This document shows positions 2,071 to 35,890 of a DNA stretch of 45,173 nt, piece after piece (the first letter of the stretch is position 1; each line of letters begins with the position of its first letter). Origin of the DNA: Vicinamibacteria bacterium (GTDB lineage: Bacteria; Acidobacteriota; Vicinamibacteria; Fen-336). The translations under genes and the position numbers were made by a program. Location: contig DATMML010000013.1 in the NCBI GenBank assembly GCA_035570235.1, positions 1-45,173 on the forward strand, given 5' to 3'. Under the pieces are notes generated by a model, which saw only the letters and a list, made by a program, of their open reading frames with translations, searched no databases and was not told the DNA's origin.

Positions 2071-2094
2071 GAGGCGCCTCCCTAGAGGCTTACG

Positions 2095-2108
2095 TGTGTA
2101 TATACACA
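2095..2108. promoter_or_regulatory. Palindromic MarR-type operator upstream of the permease gene
   Basis: TGTGTATATACACA is a perfect 14-base palindrome in the 58-base gap between the marR stop (2129) and the permease ATG (2070). A TATATA-like -10 for the minus strand lies inside it, but I see no good -35. The same palindrome with one substitution overlaps the marR promoter at 2582-2595. AT-rich palindromes of this size are typical MarR-dimer targets. The binding assignment is inference from position and repetition. Confidence 0.6.
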
Positions 2109-2128
2109 GTAGTTCCCCAAAAAGACTC

Positions 2129-5917: not shown

Positions 5918-8900
5918 CCCATGTCCCTCAGGCGGAGGATGCGAATGAGCTGGGGGTCGCTCCCTTTGATCTGGCGCCGCCGCTCCAAGAGCGGCCGCGG
6001 CCCGCAGACGGCGGTGAAGTCGCACCAGGGGCAGGCGCTCGGCTCCTGGACGAAGAGGCCCTGGCCGATGGCCTCCACCAGGCCCCCCAGCAGGGCGCGA
6101 AAGCCTTCGCTGCGCACCACATCCGGGTCCACCGCCACCTGCCGGCCGCCGTCGACGTAGTCGAGGAAAGCCTCGACCACGGGGGCGTCGGGAAACAGTT
6201 GGGCGGCGGCGAGGATGTAGAAGGGAACCTGGAGCTGCTTGCCACCCCTGAAGATCCCCAGTTCATCCTTGGGTGCCTTGCCCGTCTTGTAGTCCCGCAG
6301 GACCAGGGTGCCGTCCGGGCGGCGGTCGATGCGGTCGATCTTTCCGGACATGCGCAACATCCGCCCGTCCCCGAGGTCGAAGGTGAGGGGAGCGGGGGCG
6401 TGAGGCTCACCCCCGCTCGGGCTCTGGCCCATCCCGAAGCTGACCTCGAAGTGGGCGGGCATCGCCCGCTCGTTCCCCGCCGCCTCCCGGGCCAGCCAGC
6501 CGAGGAGGGTCTGCCGGAAACGCGTCTTCTCCCTCTCCCAAAGGAGGGTGAAGCGGGGTGGACTCCCCGCCACGTGGGCAGCCAGCGCCTCTTCCGCCAT
6601 CTCGATGAGGCGGGTCCGCGTCGCCTCAACGTCTTGTAGCGGAAGCTCTCCCCTATCCCGGCACTCGCGCAGGAACCGCTCCGCCACCCGGTGGAAGAGG
6701 TCGCCGCGCTCCAGCGGCTCCAGCCGTTTGCGCTCCTCGGGCTCGAGGGCCGGCTCCAGCCGGAGCACGTACTGGAGCAGGTACATGAAGCCGCAGCGGG
6801 AAAAGGTGGCGAGGCGGCTAGCGGAGATGGGGCCGGACGCGCTCAAGGGGTCGAGCTTACGGCGCGCCTCTTCGGGAAGGTCGGCGAGGAGGCCGTCGTA
6901 GATAGTGAGCCGATTGCTCCAGCGCCCGCGCACCGCCCAGCGCGACTGGCGGAAGAAGATCGAGCCCGTGGCGATGGCCTCGGCCGCGGGCTGGCCGCCC
7001 TCCCGGACGCGGAGGCGGTCGCGCTCCCCGGGGTCCAGAGCGGCGTCGAGCGAATCGGGCACGTCCTCTCGGACCAGGCCTTCCAGCTCGCTGCCCGAAA
7101 GGGCCCTCCCCGCGCGGGCGGAAGCCGCAGCCACGAAGAAGAGGGAGGGGAGGCGCTCGCGGCCGCTGCGGGGGTCGGCCCGCGGGTAGGTGAGGATGAG
7201 CCGCTCTCGGGCCTGGCCCACCGCGCGCTGGAAGAGCCGCCGGGCCTCCAGGAGGCGGTCCTGGGTGGTGACCAGGGCGCCCCCCGACCGCGCCGGGCCC
7301 GGCTCCGCGAAGAGGGATAGCTGGGCCTTGCCCGCCGTTTTTTTGCGGGCGGGAGGGGCCGCGGAGGGAGGGGGCGCGGCCTCGGCGAGCGCCTCCCTCT
7401 CGGGGTCGAGCAGGAACGGGTCCGGCCGGAGGACGCCCGGATAGCCCCCCTCCCCGAGCCCGGGGATGGCCACCACCCGGAAGGGGAGACCGGCCAGCGC
7501 GTCGAGGGCGCCCACGTGCACGGCCCCGCTTCCGGGCGGGTCGAGGGGGAGCCGCTTGCGCTCGAAGCGCGTCTCCACCACCGCCTCCACCTCGCTCCAG
7601 GCCACCCGCGCGTCGATCGTGCTCAGACCGGAGAGCTCCGTCAAGACCCGGAGCACCGCTTCCCGCTCCCGGTCGGGGTCGCCCCGCGGAGCCACCCACC
7701 GCTCGCAGACCCCCTTGAGCCTCTCCGACCATTCGCGCCAGGTGGCCTCCCCGGAGAGGGCATCCAGCTCCAGCGCGAGCAGCTCCACCATGCGCAGGAG
7801 GGCCTCTGCGTCGGCCGCGGTGCGGAGCCGGCGCTCCGCGCGGTCCGGATTCGCATCGAGCCCCGCCCCTTCCCGCTCCAGCTCCGCGAAGGAGCGGAGC
7901 CCGATGATCCAGCGCTCGAGCCCGGAGACGATCTGGGCATCACGGCTGACTTGGTCCCAGCGCGAGGGCCAGGCCCGGACCGCCTCCCCCAGCATGATCT
8001 CGAAGGGGATGGGGGCGAAGGTGAGCAGCTCCATCACCGCCTGTCGCGCCAGTCCGCGGGAGCGGAAGAGGAGGAGGAGGGAGCGCGCGCAGCGGCCAAA
8101 GCGGAGGGGCAGGGAGGGGTGGAGCTGGTGCGGAATGCCGAGCCGGCCCAGGAGGTCCGTGAAGAGGGGCGCGTAGGGGTCGGGGCGGGGAAGGAGCACC
8201 GCCATTTCTTCGAAGGGGACGCCGCGGGCCGCTTCGCGCAAGAGCCGCCGGGCGATCGCCCGCGCCTCGGCCGCCTCGCCGGGGCCGGTCACGAGCTCGA
8301 CGGAGTCGTCGTCCGCGGGCGTCCCCGAGGGGGGTTCGAAGAGGCCCCCCCGAACACGGGCCAGGCCCGCCGGAAGAGGCGGGGGGGCAAGGAGGGCGAG
8401 GGGCGTGTCCTCCCAGGCCGACTCCACGATTCCCTCCTTCCCCGCCCAGGCCCGGAAGGAGGAGGCGAGGAGGCTGGGTGGCATCTCCCGCCGCAGGAGG
8501 CGCACCGGAAAAGCTCGCGCGAGCGCGGAGAGAAACTCCTTCTCTCCCTCGTCCAGCTCCAGGTCGTCGACGATCAGGATCTCCGCCCCCTTGAGCCAGT
8601 CTGCCCGGCCCAGGGCTTCGTGGGCCGCGGCCAGGACGGAGGCGGGGTCCGCGACCTTCCCTTCCCGCTCGACGGAAAAAGCGCGAAAGAGGCGGGCGAG
8701 GGTGCGCAGGCGGGGCGCGTCATCCGCCCCCACGTCCGCCCGCCCGGCCAGGGCCTCCAGCCGCTCGGGCGGGACGCGCGCCAGCCTGAGCTCGGCCAGG
8801 GTGCGGGCCAGGGCCGCGGCCACGGGTCCCCGGGGCACGTCGGGAGGGAGGGGGAATCCCCCCTCCGCGTCCCCGGCCAGGAGCTTCGCGGCCAGGCGTG

Positions 8901-30531: not shown

Positions 30532-30558
30532 GGGAACCCTTTTCCGCCGCCGGGCGTT
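30532..30558 (+). promoter_or_regulatory. Candidate ECF-type promoter for the sigma factor operon
   Basis: GGGAAC (30532-30537) and CGTT (30555-30558) are separated by 17 bases. This matches the common ECF pattern GGAAC-N16/17-CGTY. It lies 43 bases before the first ATG of a run of genes that includes an ECF sigma factor, so autoregulation is likely. Based on pattern only. Confidence 0.5.
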
Positions 30559-30600
30559 AACGGGGTGGGTGGCTGGCTACCCGCCGGCCAGGGAGGGCGC

Positions 30601-30999
30601 ATGAGAGGGGGGGGCATTCTCGGGGTGGTGCTGGCCGCGGGCCTGGGCACGGCCTGCTTCGTGGAGGTCCATAAGGTGTCGGACCCGCGGGCGGCCTTTG
30701 AAAAGGCGAGGGCCGAGGCCCAGCGCTATCAGGGCCGGCCCGGTCCGGGGCACGAGCTGAACGTCCTCGCCTACGATGGCCACGACGGCGAGCTGGTCCA
30801 GGTCTCCCTCCCCCTCTGGCTCGTGCGTAAGATCGACCGCGAGGGAGGGGACCTCGAGCTGGACGGTTCGGAGGGGCGCGTGAAGGAGCATCTGCGACGC
30901 CACTTGCGGCTCCGGGACATCGAGAAAGCCGGGCTCGGCGTCTTGGTGGAGGTGGAGGAGGAAGAGAGCGGCGACCAAGTCCTCGTCTGGCTGCGCTGA
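30601..30999 (+). CDS. Small exported protein with the repeated operon domain (copy 1)
   Basis: A 132-residue protein. It begins MRGGGILGVVLAAGLGTAC, an export signal that may end in a lipobox Cys19 (the preceding residues are not ideal). From about residue 50 the sequence resembles the ends of two other products of this operon (at 32402 and 33254): a strand, then VSLPLWLVRKI, a variable helix, then a hydrophobic strand VLVEVEEEE and the terminal DQVLVWLR. The domain recalls the small domain of LiaX/YvlB and DUF2089-type proteins; that is an inference. ATG 30601 has GGGAGG directly upstream. It is the first gene after the candidate ECF promoter. Confidence 0.72.
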   Translation: MRGGGILGVVLAAGLGTACFVEVHKVSDPRAAFEKARAEAQRYQGRPGPGHELNVLAYDGHDGELVQVSLPLWLVRKIDREGGDLELDGSEGRVKEHLRRHLRLRDIEKAGLGVLVEVEEEESGDQVLVWLR

Positions 31000-31074
31000 A
31001 GGGTGCGGTCATGGTCCAATGGAGCCGAGCACGAAGGGAGAGCGGGTGCGTTCCCCGGGAGGGCTCCCGAGTCG

Positions 31075-31656
31075 ATGGAGCGGTCAGCGGGCGACGACCG
31101 GCCCCTCTCCGACCGGGACCTCATGGTCCGGCTGGCCGCGGGGGACCGCGAGGCCCTGCCCCCGCTCATGGAGAGGCACTACCGGCGCTTGTACCGGATC
31201 GCGCTGGCCTACCTGCGGAACCCCGATGATGCGCTCGACGCCGTGCAGGAGACTTTCGTGAAGGCCTTTCAGAATGCGGTCCGGTGGGACAGGGCGTCCG
31301 AGGTCGGCCCCTGGCTCTCGCGGATCGCCGTGAACCACGCGATCGACCGCTACCGGAGGGAGAAGCGGCGGCGGCAGACCTTGACCCCTTTCGATGACGA
31401 GGCCCGCGAGCTGCCGTCCACGGACCAGCCCTCGCCGGAAAGGACGGCCCTCGGCCGGGAGCTGGGGGTGAGGATCGCGGCCGCCCTGCGCGCCCTGCCC
31501 GAGAGGCAGAGGGCGGTGTTCGTCCTGCGCCACTACGAGGAGCACACCCTCGAGGAGATCGCAGGAGTCCTAGGGCTCAGCCTGGGGACGGTCAAGAGCA
31601 GCCTGCACCGGGCCATCAGGCGGCTGCGCGAGCGGCTGGCGGGCTTGAGCGCATGA
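31075..31656 (+). CDS. ECF RNA polymerase sigma factor
   Basis: A 193-residue sigma-70 family factor. Region 2 is visible as LMERHYRRLYRIALAYL and NPDDALDAVQETFVKAF, followed by WLSRIAVNHAIDRYRREKRR (regions 2.3-2.4). Region 4 has LRALPERQRAVFVLRH, then YEEHTLEEIAGVLGLSLG and VKSSLHRAIRRLRERL, the promoter -35 reader. The start ATG 31075 has GGGAGGG upstream; GTG 31003 is also in frame but has no proper ribosome-binding site. The stop overlaps the anti-sigma ATG by 4 bases. It should direct transcription of this operon. Confidence 0.93.
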   Translation: MERSAGDDRPLSDRDLMVRLAAGDREALPPLMERHYRRLYRIALAYLRNPDDALDAVQETFVKAFQNAVRWDRASEVGPWLSRIAVNHAIDRYRREKRRRQTLTPFDDEARELPSTDQPSPERTALGRELGVRIAAALRALPERQRAVFVLRHYEEHTLEEIAGVLGLSLGTVKSSLHRAIRRLRERLAGLSA

Positions 31657-32405
31657 TGTTCGAGCACCTGCGGGCGCGTCGCCGGCTCCCCCTCCTGGCG
31701 GCCGGGGTCTTGGACGGCCCCGCCCGCGGGGCCACCCTCGCCCACGTGGCTTCCTGCTCCTCCTGCCGGGGAGAGCTCGACGAGTTGGGAGCCGTCCTCC
31801 GCCTCCTCGCCTCGGATCTCAAGCCCGCCGAGCCTCCGCTCTCCTTGTCCCTGCTCGTGGCCCGGGTGGGGTCCCGCCTGGACGAGCTGGACCGTGGCCC
31901 CGGGACGGTTCGACCCCGGCCCTGGGTGGTCGCGTCCTGGGCGGGGGCGGCCGCCGTGGTGGCGGCGGTGGCGGCTGTGGTCTTCCTCCTTCCGGGGCGT
32001 CCCCGGGGCGGGAACGAGCGTCCGCTCGTCTCCGAGGACACGCTCCAGCGGCTCGAGCGTAACGTGGCCCGCGAGCAGGCCGCGCGCTACCTGGGCGAGG
32101 CGCAGGACGTGCTGGTGAGCGTGGCCGCCGCCCCGCCCCCCTGCGACCGCGAGAAGGTGGACATGGGGGAGGCCTCCGAGCGAAGCCGCAAGCTTCTGAC
32201 CCGAGGGGCTCTGCTCGTGGACCCGGAGGGGCCGGCGGTGGCGAGCGCCCGTCCTGTGCTGAATGACGTCGAGCAGGCGCTCAGGCAAGTGGCCGCGCTC
32301 GAGTCCTGCGTGAGGGCGCGGGACGTACAGAGAGTTCGGGAGGACCTGGCGCGGCGTCAGCTCCTTATGAAGATCCGGCTCATGAAGCGGGAGCTCGAGG
32401 GATGA
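31653..32405 (+). CDS. Putative zinc-finger anti-sigma factor with one membrane helix
   Basis: A 250-residue protein. HVASCSSC at 31-38 is the H-x3-C-x2-C of zinc-finger anti-sigma domains, which hold the sigma factor inactive in the cytoplasm. A membrane helix lies at about 91-113 (WVVASWAGAAAVVAAVAAVV). The remaining 135 residues would be periplasmic: charged, helical, with two Cys (in PPPCDRE and LESCVRA) that could act as a redox or disulfide switch. The 4-base overlaps with the sigma factor gene before and the HEAT-repeat gene after argue for strict co-translation. The anti-sigma role is inferred from motif and position. Confidence 0.82.
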   Translation: MMFEHLRARRRLPLLAAGVLDGPARGATLAHVASCSSCRGELDELGAVLRLLASDLKPAEPPLSLSLLVARVGSRLDELDRGPGTVRPRPWVVASWAGAAAVVAAVAAVVFLLPGRPRGGNERPLVSEDTLQRLERNVAREQAARYLGEAQDVLVSVAAAPPPCDREKVDMGEASERSRKLLTRGALLVDPEGPAVASARPVLNDVEQALRQVAALESCVRARDVQRVREDLARRQLLMKIRLMKRELEG

Positions 32406-33235
32406 AGGCGCCCCGCCCCGCCCTCGCCCTCCTCCTGCTCGTCCTCGTGGCCGCGGCCCCCGCCCACGCCCAGGTGGACGCGGAACGGCTGCGGGCCGCC
32501 AAGACGCTCTTCTTCGACCGCAAGTACGCGGAGGCGCGCCAGGCCTGGGCCACGCTCGCGGAGGTCAAGGGCCCCGATGCGGAAGCCGCCGTCTTCTGGA
32601 TGGCCCGCTGCAGCGAGAACCTGGGCGAATCCGCCCGGGCCCTGGCCGAGTACACCGCCTACCTGGACCGCCGGCCTGCGGACCGCGCGCTGTCTCAGGA
32701 AGCGCGCACGAGCCGGGTGGGCCTCGCCGCCCGGCTCTACAAAGGGGGGGAGAAGGGGCACCTACCCATCCTCAAGGAGGCGTTGGGCGATCCGAGCAAG
32801 ACCGTGCGCTACTACGCCGCCTTTCAGCTCGGGGGGCTGGGCCCGGACGTGGGCCAGCCCGCGGTCCCCGTGCTCAAGCGCATCTTGGAGGAAGAGAAGG
32901 ACGAGGACCTCGTCGAGCGCGCCAAGCTCTACCTCCTGCGGCTCGACCCCGGGGCCTTGACCCGGGCGCGCCCGGTTCCGGGCCTCGGCGAGGCGGGCTG
33001 GCTCCGCGTGCGCATCTACAGCCGCGGCCAGTCCCGGCCCGAGGTCTCCATCAACCTGCCCATGGCCCTGGCGGAGATGGTCTTCAAGAGCCTCCCCGAC
33101 GAGGTGCGGACCGAGCTCGGACATCGGGGATATGAGGCCGGCAAGTTCTGGGAACAGCTCAAGAAGCTGCGGCCGGCCGAGATTTTGAGCATCGAGGGCA
33201 AGGACGGTGACCGGGTCCAGATCTGGATCGAGTGA
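32402..33235 (+). CDS. Exported TPR/HEAT-like protein with the repeated operon domain (copy 2)
   Basis: A 277-residue exported protein. The signal peptide is MKAPRPALALLLLVLVAAAP with cleavage after AHA (23). Residues 25-110 look like TPR helices (AAKTLFFDRKYAEARQAW, then AEAAVFWMARCSENLGESA). Residues 115-180 contain HEAT-like pairs such as LKEALGDPSKTVRYYAAFQL. Residues 199-277 form the shared domain: WLRVRIYSRG, then VSINLPMALAEMV, a variable middle and the terminal ILSIEGKDGDRVQIWIE. It overlaps the anti-sigma stop by 4 bases. It probably acts in the periplasm; no enzymatic motif is seen. Confidence 0.8.
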   Translation: MKAPRPALALLLLVLVAAAPAHAQVDAERLRAAKTLFFDRKYAEARQAWATLAEVKGPDAEAAVFWMARCSENLGESARALAEYTAYLDRRPADRALSQEARTSRVGLAARLYKGGEKGHLPILKEALGDPSKTVRYYAAFQLGGLGPDVGQPAVPVLKRILEEEKDEDLVERAKLYLLRLDPGALTRARPVPGLGEAGWLRVRIYSRGQSRPEVSINLPMALAEMVFKSLPDEVRTELGHRGYEAGKFWEQLKKLRPAEILSIEGKDGDRVQIWIE

Positions 33236-33253
33236 GAGGGAGGAGGAGATCAC

Positions 33254-33676
33254 ATGTCTATGGTGCGGTTGGGTAGAGTGCTCGTGGCGGTGGGGGCCGC
33301 GCTCATCCTGGGAGGGGCGGTTGCCGCCGACGATGATCTGGCCGTGGTGAAGCGAGCCACCACCGGGGAAGCCCAAGCGGCTCCGGAGGGGGAAAAGGCG
33401 GGGCCGGCGCCGAAGGGCAACGCGGCCGCGCCCCAGTGGCTGAAGGTCAGGATCGTGGAAAAGAACGGCAAGAAGTCGCGGGTCTCGGTCAACGTGCCGC
33501 TGGCCCTCGTTCATGCCCTCGGCGACGAGTGCCCCATCGATTGGCACTTGAAGGCGGGCCGTCAGGGGGAGACTCGGAAGGTTCGCTTGTCCGAGGTGCT
33601 CAAGGCCTTGCAGTCCGGCCAGGACATCGTGCAGATCGAGGACGAGGAAGCCACGGTCAAGGTCTGGGTGGAGTAG
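33254..33676 (+). CDS. Small exported protein with the repeated operon domain (copy 3)
   Basis: A 140-residue protein with a signal peptide MSMVRLGRVLVAVGAALILG and cleavage near AVAA. A charged Pro/Ala linker follows, then the shared domain (about 59-140): WLKVRIVEKNGKKSRVSVNV, PLALVHALGDE, a middle with VRLSEVLKALQSGQ, and the end DIVQIEDEEATVKVWVE. It is the clearest copy of the LiaX/YvlB-like pattern (strand, V-x-V-x-[LV]-P-L-x-L-V, helix, [IV]-x-I-E-D, V-x-[IV]-W-V-E). A strong AGGAGG lies 7 bases before ATG 33254. Last gene of the ECF operon. Confidence 0.78.
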   Translation: MSMVRLGRVLVAVGAALILGGAVAADDDLAVVKRATTGEAQAAPEGEKAGPAPKGNAAAPQWLKVRIVEKNGKKSRVSVNVPLALVHALGDECPIDWHLKAGRQGETRKVRLSEVLKALQSGQDIVQIEDEEATVKVWVE

Positions 33677-33818: not shown

Positions 33819-34088
33819 ATGACGATCACGACCCTTGCTGGAGCCGTGGTCCTTTCCGCCGCTCTCGCCGCCCCGGCCTTGGCCGAGGCCGGCGATTACT
33901 ACTATGCCCGCCCCTACGGGGCGTATTACGCCGCCCCCTATCGGGTCCACCGATACGGGTACTATGGGCCCTACGGGTACTACGCTTACCCGTACCGCTA
34001 CTACCGCCGGGCCTACGTACCGCCGCCGCGCCCGTTCTACGCGTACCGCAACCCCCGGCCCCGATTTCACTTCGGCGTCTGGTGGTAG
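33819..34088 (+). CDS. Secreted Tyr-rich small protein
   Basis: An 89-residue protein. MTITTLAGAVVLSAALAAPA is a signal peptide with cleavage near ALA. The mature 67 residues hold about 20 Tyr, with many Pro, Arg and Gly, in motifs such as YYARPYG and GYYGPYGYYAYP, ending in FHFGVWW. This composition is low-complexity and could give a sticky, cross-linkable or aggregating surface material. AGGAGG lies 7 bases before ATG 33819. TTGACA is present at 33742-33747, but I see no good -10. It follows the ECF operon by 142 bases and may be regulated separately. Function unknown. Confidence 0.75.
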   Translation: MTITTLAGAVVLSAALAAPALAEAGDYYYARPYGAYYAAPYRVHRYGYYGPYGYYAYPYRYYRRAYVPPPRPFYAYRNPRPRFHFGVWW

Positions 34089-34104: not shown

Positions 34105-35022
34105 TCACGAGGCCGGCGCGTAGTAGCCGAGCTTGTGGCGGATCTGTAGGTCGTCCCGCTCCGGGGTGCGGACGACGATCCTCCGCCATTTGCCGTCCTT
34201 CCGCCGGTTGGAGGAGACGTAGCCGAGCGAGTACTGGGTTCGGAGTTCCTCCGCGATGCGGTCGTAGACGGTGTCCAGCTCCGAGAGCGAGTTGGGAAAA
34301 TGGACCTGGCCGCCGGTCTCGCGGGCGAGGGCGGTGAGCAGGTACTCGGCCTGGCTGAAGGCCTGGCGGGCACGGTCCTGCGGCCGGTTGGGGCGCAGGC
34401 TGATGCAGTAGACATTGATCTCGGTCTTACGGGCCAGGTCCAGGACCTGCTCGTCGCTCACCAGGGAGGCCGTGTCCTCGCCGTCCGTGAGCAGCACGAC
34501 CGCCCGCCGCCGCAGCTCCCCCGCCTTCTTCTGCTTGCCCAGGTCCTTGAGGGCGATGTAGATCGTGTTGTGCAGCGCGGTGGGGCCCGAGGCCGAGGTA
34601 CTGTTGATGGCCTTCTCCAGGAGGGCATGGTCGGACGTGAAGTCCTGGAGCACGGTGGCCCGGTCGTTGAACTGGACAACCTGCGCGCTGTCCTGGGGGC
34701 GGAGGGTCTTGATGAAACGGATGGCCGCCTGCCGCGCGGCGGGCAGCTTTTCGTCCATGGAGGCGGAGACGTCTATTAGGAGGGCCAGGGAGATGGGCAG
34801 GTTCTCGTGGGTGAAGAGAGAGAGGTCCTGGCGCACCCCGTCTTCGAACACCGCGAAGTCCCCCTCCTTGAGGTCGGTCACGTAGCGGTTGCGGCCATCG
34901 GTCACGGAGATGTTCAGGTTGATGACCTCGATTCCGACCTGGAAGGTGGGGGGCTGGGGGATCGTCTGCGCGGAAAGGGTGGCGGCCAGGATCAGGGCGG
35001 CCGAAGCAAAGCGGAGCCGCAT
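34105..35022 (-). CDS. VWFA-related exported protein, acidobacterial type
   Basis: A 305-residue exported protein. A signal peptide of about 19 residues is followed by a beta domain (FQVGIEVINLNISVTDGRN and DFAVFEDGVRQD) and a von Willebrand A domain. The metal site (MIDAS) reads DVSASMD at 84-90, with the later Thr and Asp in GPTALH and LLTDGEDTA. The combination N-terminal 'VxVxVTDxxGrxVxxLxxxDFxVxEDG' plus VWA matches the acidobacterial VWFA-related domain (TIGR03436). Proposed roles are protein binding at the cell surface. It lies 4 bases after its paralogue on the same strand. Confidence 0.9.
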   Translation of the reverse strand: MRLRFASAALILAATLSAQTIPQPPTFQVGIEVINLNISVTDGRNRYVTDLKEGDFAVFEDGVRQDLSLFTHENLPISLALLIDVSASMDEKLPAARQAAIRFIKTLRPQDSAQVVQFNDRATVLQDFTSDHALLEKAINSTSASGPTALHNTIYIALKDLGKQKKAGELRRRAVVLLTDGEDTASLVSDEQVLDLARKTEINVYCISLRPNRPQDRARQAFSQAEYLLTALARETGGQVHFPNSLSELDTVYDRIAEELRTQYSLGYVSSNRRKDGKWRRIVVRTPERDDLQIRHKLGYYAPAS

Positions 35023-35026
35023 TGGG

Positions 35027-35890
35027 TCAGCTGTGGTCGACGGTGGCGGGGCCGATCCGCACGCGCACCCCGGGCCGGGAAACCTTCACTTCTAGTTTCC
35101 GCTCCTTGATCTCGGGCACGGTCGCGTAGCGCAGCCGGTACTGGCCGCGCAGCGCCGCGCCCACCCTCTCCAGGGCGTGGCCAACGGCCAGGGAGGTGAG
35201 CACGGTCTCGTAGACCCCGCCCGTCTTCCGCGTCAGCTCGCCCAGGACATAGTCGTACCTGGCCAGACTCTCGAAACTCTCCCCCCCCTCGTCGATCTTG
35301 ACCGCCATGAAAAGGGGCGCGTTGGCCAACGCCTGCTCCACGACCCGGAAGCGGTCCCGGCTGCTGAACTCGATGCCGATCTTGGTCACCGCCACTACCG
35401 CCGACCGCTCGCCTTCCTTCTTCTTGAGGTCCGCCGAGGCCTCCACGAGCGCGTCGAGGACCGTGTTCCCGCCCTGGGGTGGCACCCGCTTCAGAGCCTG
35501 CGACGCCTCCAAGGGGTCGGAGGTGTAGTCCACGAGCTTCAATGGCCGATCACCCGTGGTCCAGAGGGCGTATTTCGACCCCGAGGGCAGTCCCATGAGG
35601 AAAGCCACCAGCGGCTCCAGCACCTGCATCCGCAAGTCCGAATTCATGTTGGCGCTGGTGTCCAGGAGGACGGCGACGGTGAGGGGCCGGCGGTCGGGAA
35701 GGAGTCCCACGATGTCGCGGGCCAGGCCGTTTTCCAACACCACCACTTCCTCCGGGGAGAGCCCCTCGGCGGGCCGGCCCTTCTCGTCCGTGATGGTGAC
35801 GAGGAGGGAGCGGACCATGGCCTGCTCCGTGCTCGCCGGGGGAGCCCCGGCCTGGGCCAGGAAGAGGCCGGCCCACAGTGCTAAGGACAT
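35027..35890 (-). CDS. Second VWFA-related exported protein with altered MIDAS
   Basis: A 287-residue paralogue of the next gene. The signal peptide is short (MSLALWAGLFLAQAGA). The beta domain has VTITDEKGRPAEGLSPEEVV and VLENGLARDI. The VWA metal site reads DTSANMN at 77-83, so the second serine of D-x-S-x-S is Asn; metal binding may be weakened. The C-terminal strand-rich segment resembles that of the first. The two form an operon with a promoter at 35939-35968. Function unknown. Confidence 0.85.
   Translation of the reverse strand: MSLALWAGLFLAQAGAPPASTEQAMVRSLLVTITDEKGRPAEGLSPEEVVVLENGLARDIVGLLPDRRPLTVAVLLDTSANMNSDLRMQVLEPLVAFLMGLPSGSKYALWTTGDRPLKLVDYTSDPLEASQALKRVPPQGGNTVLDALVEASADLKKKEGERSAVVAVTKIGIEFSSRDRFRVVEQALANAPLFMAVKIDEGGESFESLARYDYVLGELTRKTGGVYETVLTSLAVGHALERVGAALRGQYRLRYATVPEIKERKLEVKVSRPGVRVRIGPATVDHS

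Follow-up and report, generated by a model that had tools for sequence, protein, structure and literature searches.

The 45,173-nucleotide stretch analyzed here, called the window below, contains an operon of five genes, all on the + strand, encoding in order an exported protein (c1), an ECF sigma factor, an anti-sigma factor, and two further exported proteins (c2 and c3). Profile comparison indicates that c1, c2, and c3 share a single homologous domain of ~80 residues at their C-termini. This conserved acidobacterial operon appears to be a cell-envelope stress circuit not described before, one that also seems to control further genes for the same domain. No description of the operon or of its arrangement was found among the open-access papers searched. 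New here is also a promoter-like site, which lies before c1, before a separate gene for an exported protein with two domain copies (the tandem-domain gene), and before a gene for a small membrane protein. The features are as follows.

30533..30559, + strand: predicted ECF promoter of the operon, GGAACC-N16-CGTTA, kept in 11/11 family operons.
30601..30999, + strand: c1, predicted lipoprotein of 132 aa with the shared domain at its C-terminus (lipobox Cys19, homologues).
30751..30996, + strand: shared domain copy 1, in c1 (hhalign against the c2/c3 domain profiles; model).
31075..31656, + strand: ECF sigma factor (Pfam Sigma70_r2 8.6e-18, Sigma70_r4_2 1.8e-18).
31653..32405, + strand: anti-sigma factor with zf-HC2, one TM helix (residues 90-117), and an extracytoplasmic C-terminal part.
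32402..33235, + strand: c2, exported TPR/HEAT protein with the shared domain at its C-terminus (model pLDDT 89.9).
32996..33232, + strand: shared domain copy 2, in c2 (BLASTP, hhalign, model).
33254..33676, + strand: c3, exported protein of 140 aa, with a DDLxVVKxA segment after the signal, then the shared domain.
33434..33673, + strand: shared domain copy 3, in c3 (BLASTP, hhalign).
33819..34088, + strand: conserved neighbour, encoding an exported protein rich in Tyr, Arg, and His (89 aa when counted from this ATG), candidate operon member.
L146 (G000 C20:23112), - strand: small multi-pass membrane protein, found also at L152-L155, L157, and L158.

A sequence-only reading of this DNA had described the positions of the genes and the 4-base overlaps that join the sigma, anti-sigma, and c2 genes. 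Both were confirmed. The overlaps are of the ATGA type, and together with the five-gene order they are preserved in each of the 11 complete family loci; the G009 locus ends at a contig end and is outside this number. Pfam matches and a single hydrophobic segment likewise agree with its assignment of an ECF sigma factor and a zinc-finger, single-TM anti-sigma factor. In the sigma factor, Sigma70_r2 covers residues 31-99 and Sigma70_r4_2 residues 133-184, and Pfam shows no further domain. It thus consists of the sigma2 and sigma4 domains only, and its gene overlaps that of a membrane anti-sigma factor which is predicted to bind it. The anti-sigma factor matches zf-HC2 above the Pfam cut-off, carries the motif H-x3-C-x2-C (HxxxCxxC), and has its hydrophobic segment at residues 90-117. 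In c2, the HEAT_2 and TPR_16 matches are under the Pfam cut-off, and most of the structures that Foldseek found with the c2 model are helical repeat proteins of TPR- and HEAT-like type. Export signals had been claimed for all three domain proteins, and a hydrophobic signal is present at the start of each. Those of c2 and c3 are ordinary-looking, but c1 is more accurately a predicted lipoprotein, with Cys19 invariant in 19/19 homologues.

The genome of the window is 5.7 Mb in size. A search with c3 found the shared domain in 12 of the 13 other family genomes, and a related Acidobacteria groundwater MAG has the same five genes. In G004, the only match is a separate tandem-domain gene. Neither c2 nor the operon was found in G004 (98% complete) or G001 (68% complete). 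Across the phylum, the domain is present in 126/396 Acidobacteriota genomes, and among the loci read elsewhere in the phylum, the sigma and anti-sigma genes adjoin c2 in every one that holds c2 with room upstream (28/28). The loci were picked from domain matches, and the counts are silent on operons that have no domain copy. The core of the operon across Acidobacteriota is sigma/anti-sigma/c2, while the presence of c3 and c1 varies between clades. The expected conservation of the three-copy set around the sigma factor is therefore seen in the 11 complete family loci, but elsewhere only c2 is invariant. Loss of copies without pattern, which the sequence-only reading had named as evidence against itself, does not describe c1: its presence follows the tree, with 4 changes against 13.3 in shuffles (lowest shuffle 8). 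The presence of c3 follows it less clearly, with 5 changes against 9.1, and the lowest shuffle is also 5.

A small exported Tyr/Arg/His-rich protein like that at 33819-34088 lies 40-184 nt after c3 in 9/12 family loci. It has no Pfam match, is absent in genus g6, and is also observed at L006, about 6577-6904. Two von Willebrand A-like proteins are encoded downstream of the operon in the window (34105-35022 and 35027-35890, - strand), and such a protein directly follows c3 in L040-L042.

In 11/11 family operons, the sequence GGAACY-N16-CGTWA begins 35-75 nt upstream of c1. AAC at -35, CGT at -10, co-transcription of the anti-sigma gene, and autoregulation are typical of ECF sigma factors (PMC8103513), and the operon site, a predicted promoter, has the same AAC and CGT. 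In the genome of the window the pattern has seven matches, no more than the reversed control. One is at the operon and one precedes the small multi-pass membrane protein (~100-120 aa, with an LPF[RK]-type core), whose orthologues have a site of the same kind in 6/8 cases. The other matches in this genome revealed no conserved target beyond these two.

The tandem-domain gene is followed by a second gene of its kind, and both are absent from the genome of the window. In the family, such paired genes were observed outside the sigma operon (L045, L047, L048, L050, and L051), and their products are exported or membrane-anchored. RGAACY-N16-CGTWA precedes the tandem-domain gene in seven genomes. In G008 this gene has a variant site, CGAACC, and in G004, which is without the sigma operon, it has no site. 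In nine genomes, RGAACY-N16-CGTWA has 30 matches against 18 for the reversed control, and 16 of the 30 precede domain genes, nine at the operon and seven at the tandem-domain gene; a rough estimate of the chance expectation at tandem-domain genes is ~0.001. Because the operon itself supplied the pattern, matches there do not count as independent evidence. The matches at the tandem-domain and membrane-protein genes are independent, with the qualification that R for G at position one was allowed after the tandem-domain genes had been seen. Matches within efflux adaptor genes of g6 (L174, L175, and L181) are coding sequence and were left uncounted. Outside the window's family and the sister one (L104), a loose pattern found a site in only a minority of operons, 8/29.

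The presence of these sites at the domain genes makes the domain proteins look like the regulon of the sigma factor itself, as far as a motif can show. GGAAC/CGT is a generic ECF site, and the AAC/CGT pattern is usual among ECF sigma factors, so that another ECF could use these sites, and they can be linked to this sigma factor only indirectly. A similar site, AGAACC-N16-CGTTA, lies 12 nt upstream of the gene for another ECF sigma factor in genus g6 (L165 and L180). ABC permease-like genes were observed 19-35 nt behind GGAACY-N16-CGTWA in the window (2090-2116, - strand), L171, and L187; they are not obviously orthologous to each other.

The best explanation, with a probability of about 0.5, is an ECF circuit that responds to envelope stress and regulates itself. 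In it, c2 would partner the anti-sigma factor in the periplasm, while c1, c3, and the tandem-domain protein would be envelope proteins made upon induction. The anti-sigma factor is predicted to span the membrane, and its zinc-finger part would hold the sigma factor at rest. A periplasmic signal would be read by the extracytoplasmic part of the anti-sigma factor together with c2, which by analogy may act as RseB does, and the sigma factor would then be released, presumably by proteolysis. It would transcribe its own operon from GGAACY-N16-CGTWA, and probably also the genes for the tandem-domain exported protein and the small multi-pass membrane protein. The most likely role of the shared domain is to bind proteins in the periplasm. 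The lipoprotein c1, c3, and the tandem-domain protein may feed back through this domain. The contact of c2 with the anti-sigma factor is suggested by the coupling of their genes.

The main rival, tentative yet with a real chance of being right, is that c1, c2, c3, and the tandem-domain protein are all output. They would protect the envelope or form part of it and be produced when needed, without any of them touching the anti-sigma factor, which would sense stress alone and be released by proteolysis. Such a role fits the location of nearly all examined family domain genes behind the same kind of site, the dispensability of c1 and c3 in other clades, and the distance of the tandem-domain genes from the sigma gene. 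Against it speaks c2, which is never apart from the anti-sigma gene in the 28 loci and overlaps it in the family, more than an ordinary target needs. It is improbable that all three copies are sensors or ligands that use a common binding site to tune the anti-sigma factor, the view to which the sequence-only reading had inclined. Three exported proteins encoded together and carrying the same domain could indeed compete for one partner, but many operons with sigma, anti-sigma, and c2 are missing c1 and c3, and the tandem-domain protein of G004 carries the domain without the operon.

The homology of the three domains had been claimed from the sequence-only reading and was supported by profile comparison. 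BLASTP connects c2 and c3 (4e-9), gives only 0.012 for c1 and c3, and finds no meaningful match between c1 and c2. With hhalign, profiles from 11-12 family genomes give 1e-15 for c2-c3, 6.5e-6 for c1-c2, and 1e-5 for c1-c3; phylum-wide profiles give 3e-24, 3e-11, and 1e-13, respectively. These E-values are from single pairs and were calibrated by controls (N-terminal parts, sigma, and anti-sigma), which score 0.01 or worse. The phylum-wide values are far below the controls, so the resemblance is more than chance. In the AlphaFold models of c1 (pLDDT 81.9) and c2 (pLDDT 89.9), predicted separately, the domain has the same order of elements: two strands, three helices, and two strands. A common small strand/helix arrangement without homology is hardly credible, for although the domain is short and the pairwise similarity of c1 to the other copies is weak, the profile E-values are 1e-11 to 3e-24 in magnitude and all copies lie at the very C-terminus with the element order alike in the c1 and c2 models.

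Single-sequence scans found no Pfam or NCBIfam model for the shared domain. A profile search against PDB sequences gave only chance-level matches, the best being designed beta-propellers, and the c1 model has no convincing relative among known structures (best Foldseek E 0.24, best VIA-align Z 4.3). As judged by profiles, the shared domain is closest to the second domain found in small PF22746 (SHOCT-like, DUF2089-C) proteins such as L127, L130, and L133. The hhalign values of this second domain against c1, c2, and c3 are 4e-7, 3e-8, and 6e-7, while controls score 0.28 or worse. PF22746 proteins have SHOCT-like N-terminal helices and no visible signal peptide, whereas c1-c3 are without those helices in Pfam. 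None was found in the genome of the window; the fetched loci are from other families of the phylum. In these proteins the domain would not be periplasmic, which counts against a periplasmic role.

The kinship with known small domains that had been proposed at first is therefore supported for DUF2089-C but, as judged by Pfam, not for LiaX/YvlB. LiaX signals through LiaFSR in enterococci (PMC10269926), and the yvl operon of B. subtilis is partly under the ECF sigma-W (PMC12791056). They share the envelope-stress context, and a SHOCT-like start with PF22746 proteins. Their large domain is Toastrack (PMC11237479, PMC12791056), which sets LiaX/YvlB apart; membership was rejected, as no copy has a Toastrack/DUF4097 match in Pfam.

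The closest system in layout is RpoE-RseA-RseB of Enterobacteria, which likewise combines an ECF sigma factor, a membrane anti-sigma factor, and an operon-encoded periplasmic protein, and which is autoregulated from a GGAACTT-type -35 element (PMC8103513), as predicted here. In contrast to that system, c2 consists of TPR/HEAT repeats and a new domain, the anti-sigma factor is of the zf-HC2 type, and two more exported proteins (c1 and c3) carry the domain of c2. No Pfam match to the RseB family was found in c1-c3.

Acidobacteriota are abundant in soil. The hosts of the operon are soil and groundwater bacteria. It is rather unlikely, if conceivable, that the operon represents an undescribed, phylum-wide acidobacterial envelope-stress system in which the ECF sigma factor drives exported proteins of several kinds (lipoprotein, TPR/HEAT protein, proteins with one or two domain copies), a new periplasmic domain common to them contacts the anti-sigma factor, and the regulon products compete at the sensor. 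The domain has no Pfam model and connects exported proteins of acidobacteria to small proteins of the SHOCT-like type. The operon offers a sigma factor together with a predicted promoter and a set of targets with an unnamed domain in common, so that both the regulon and what the domain does can be tested directly.
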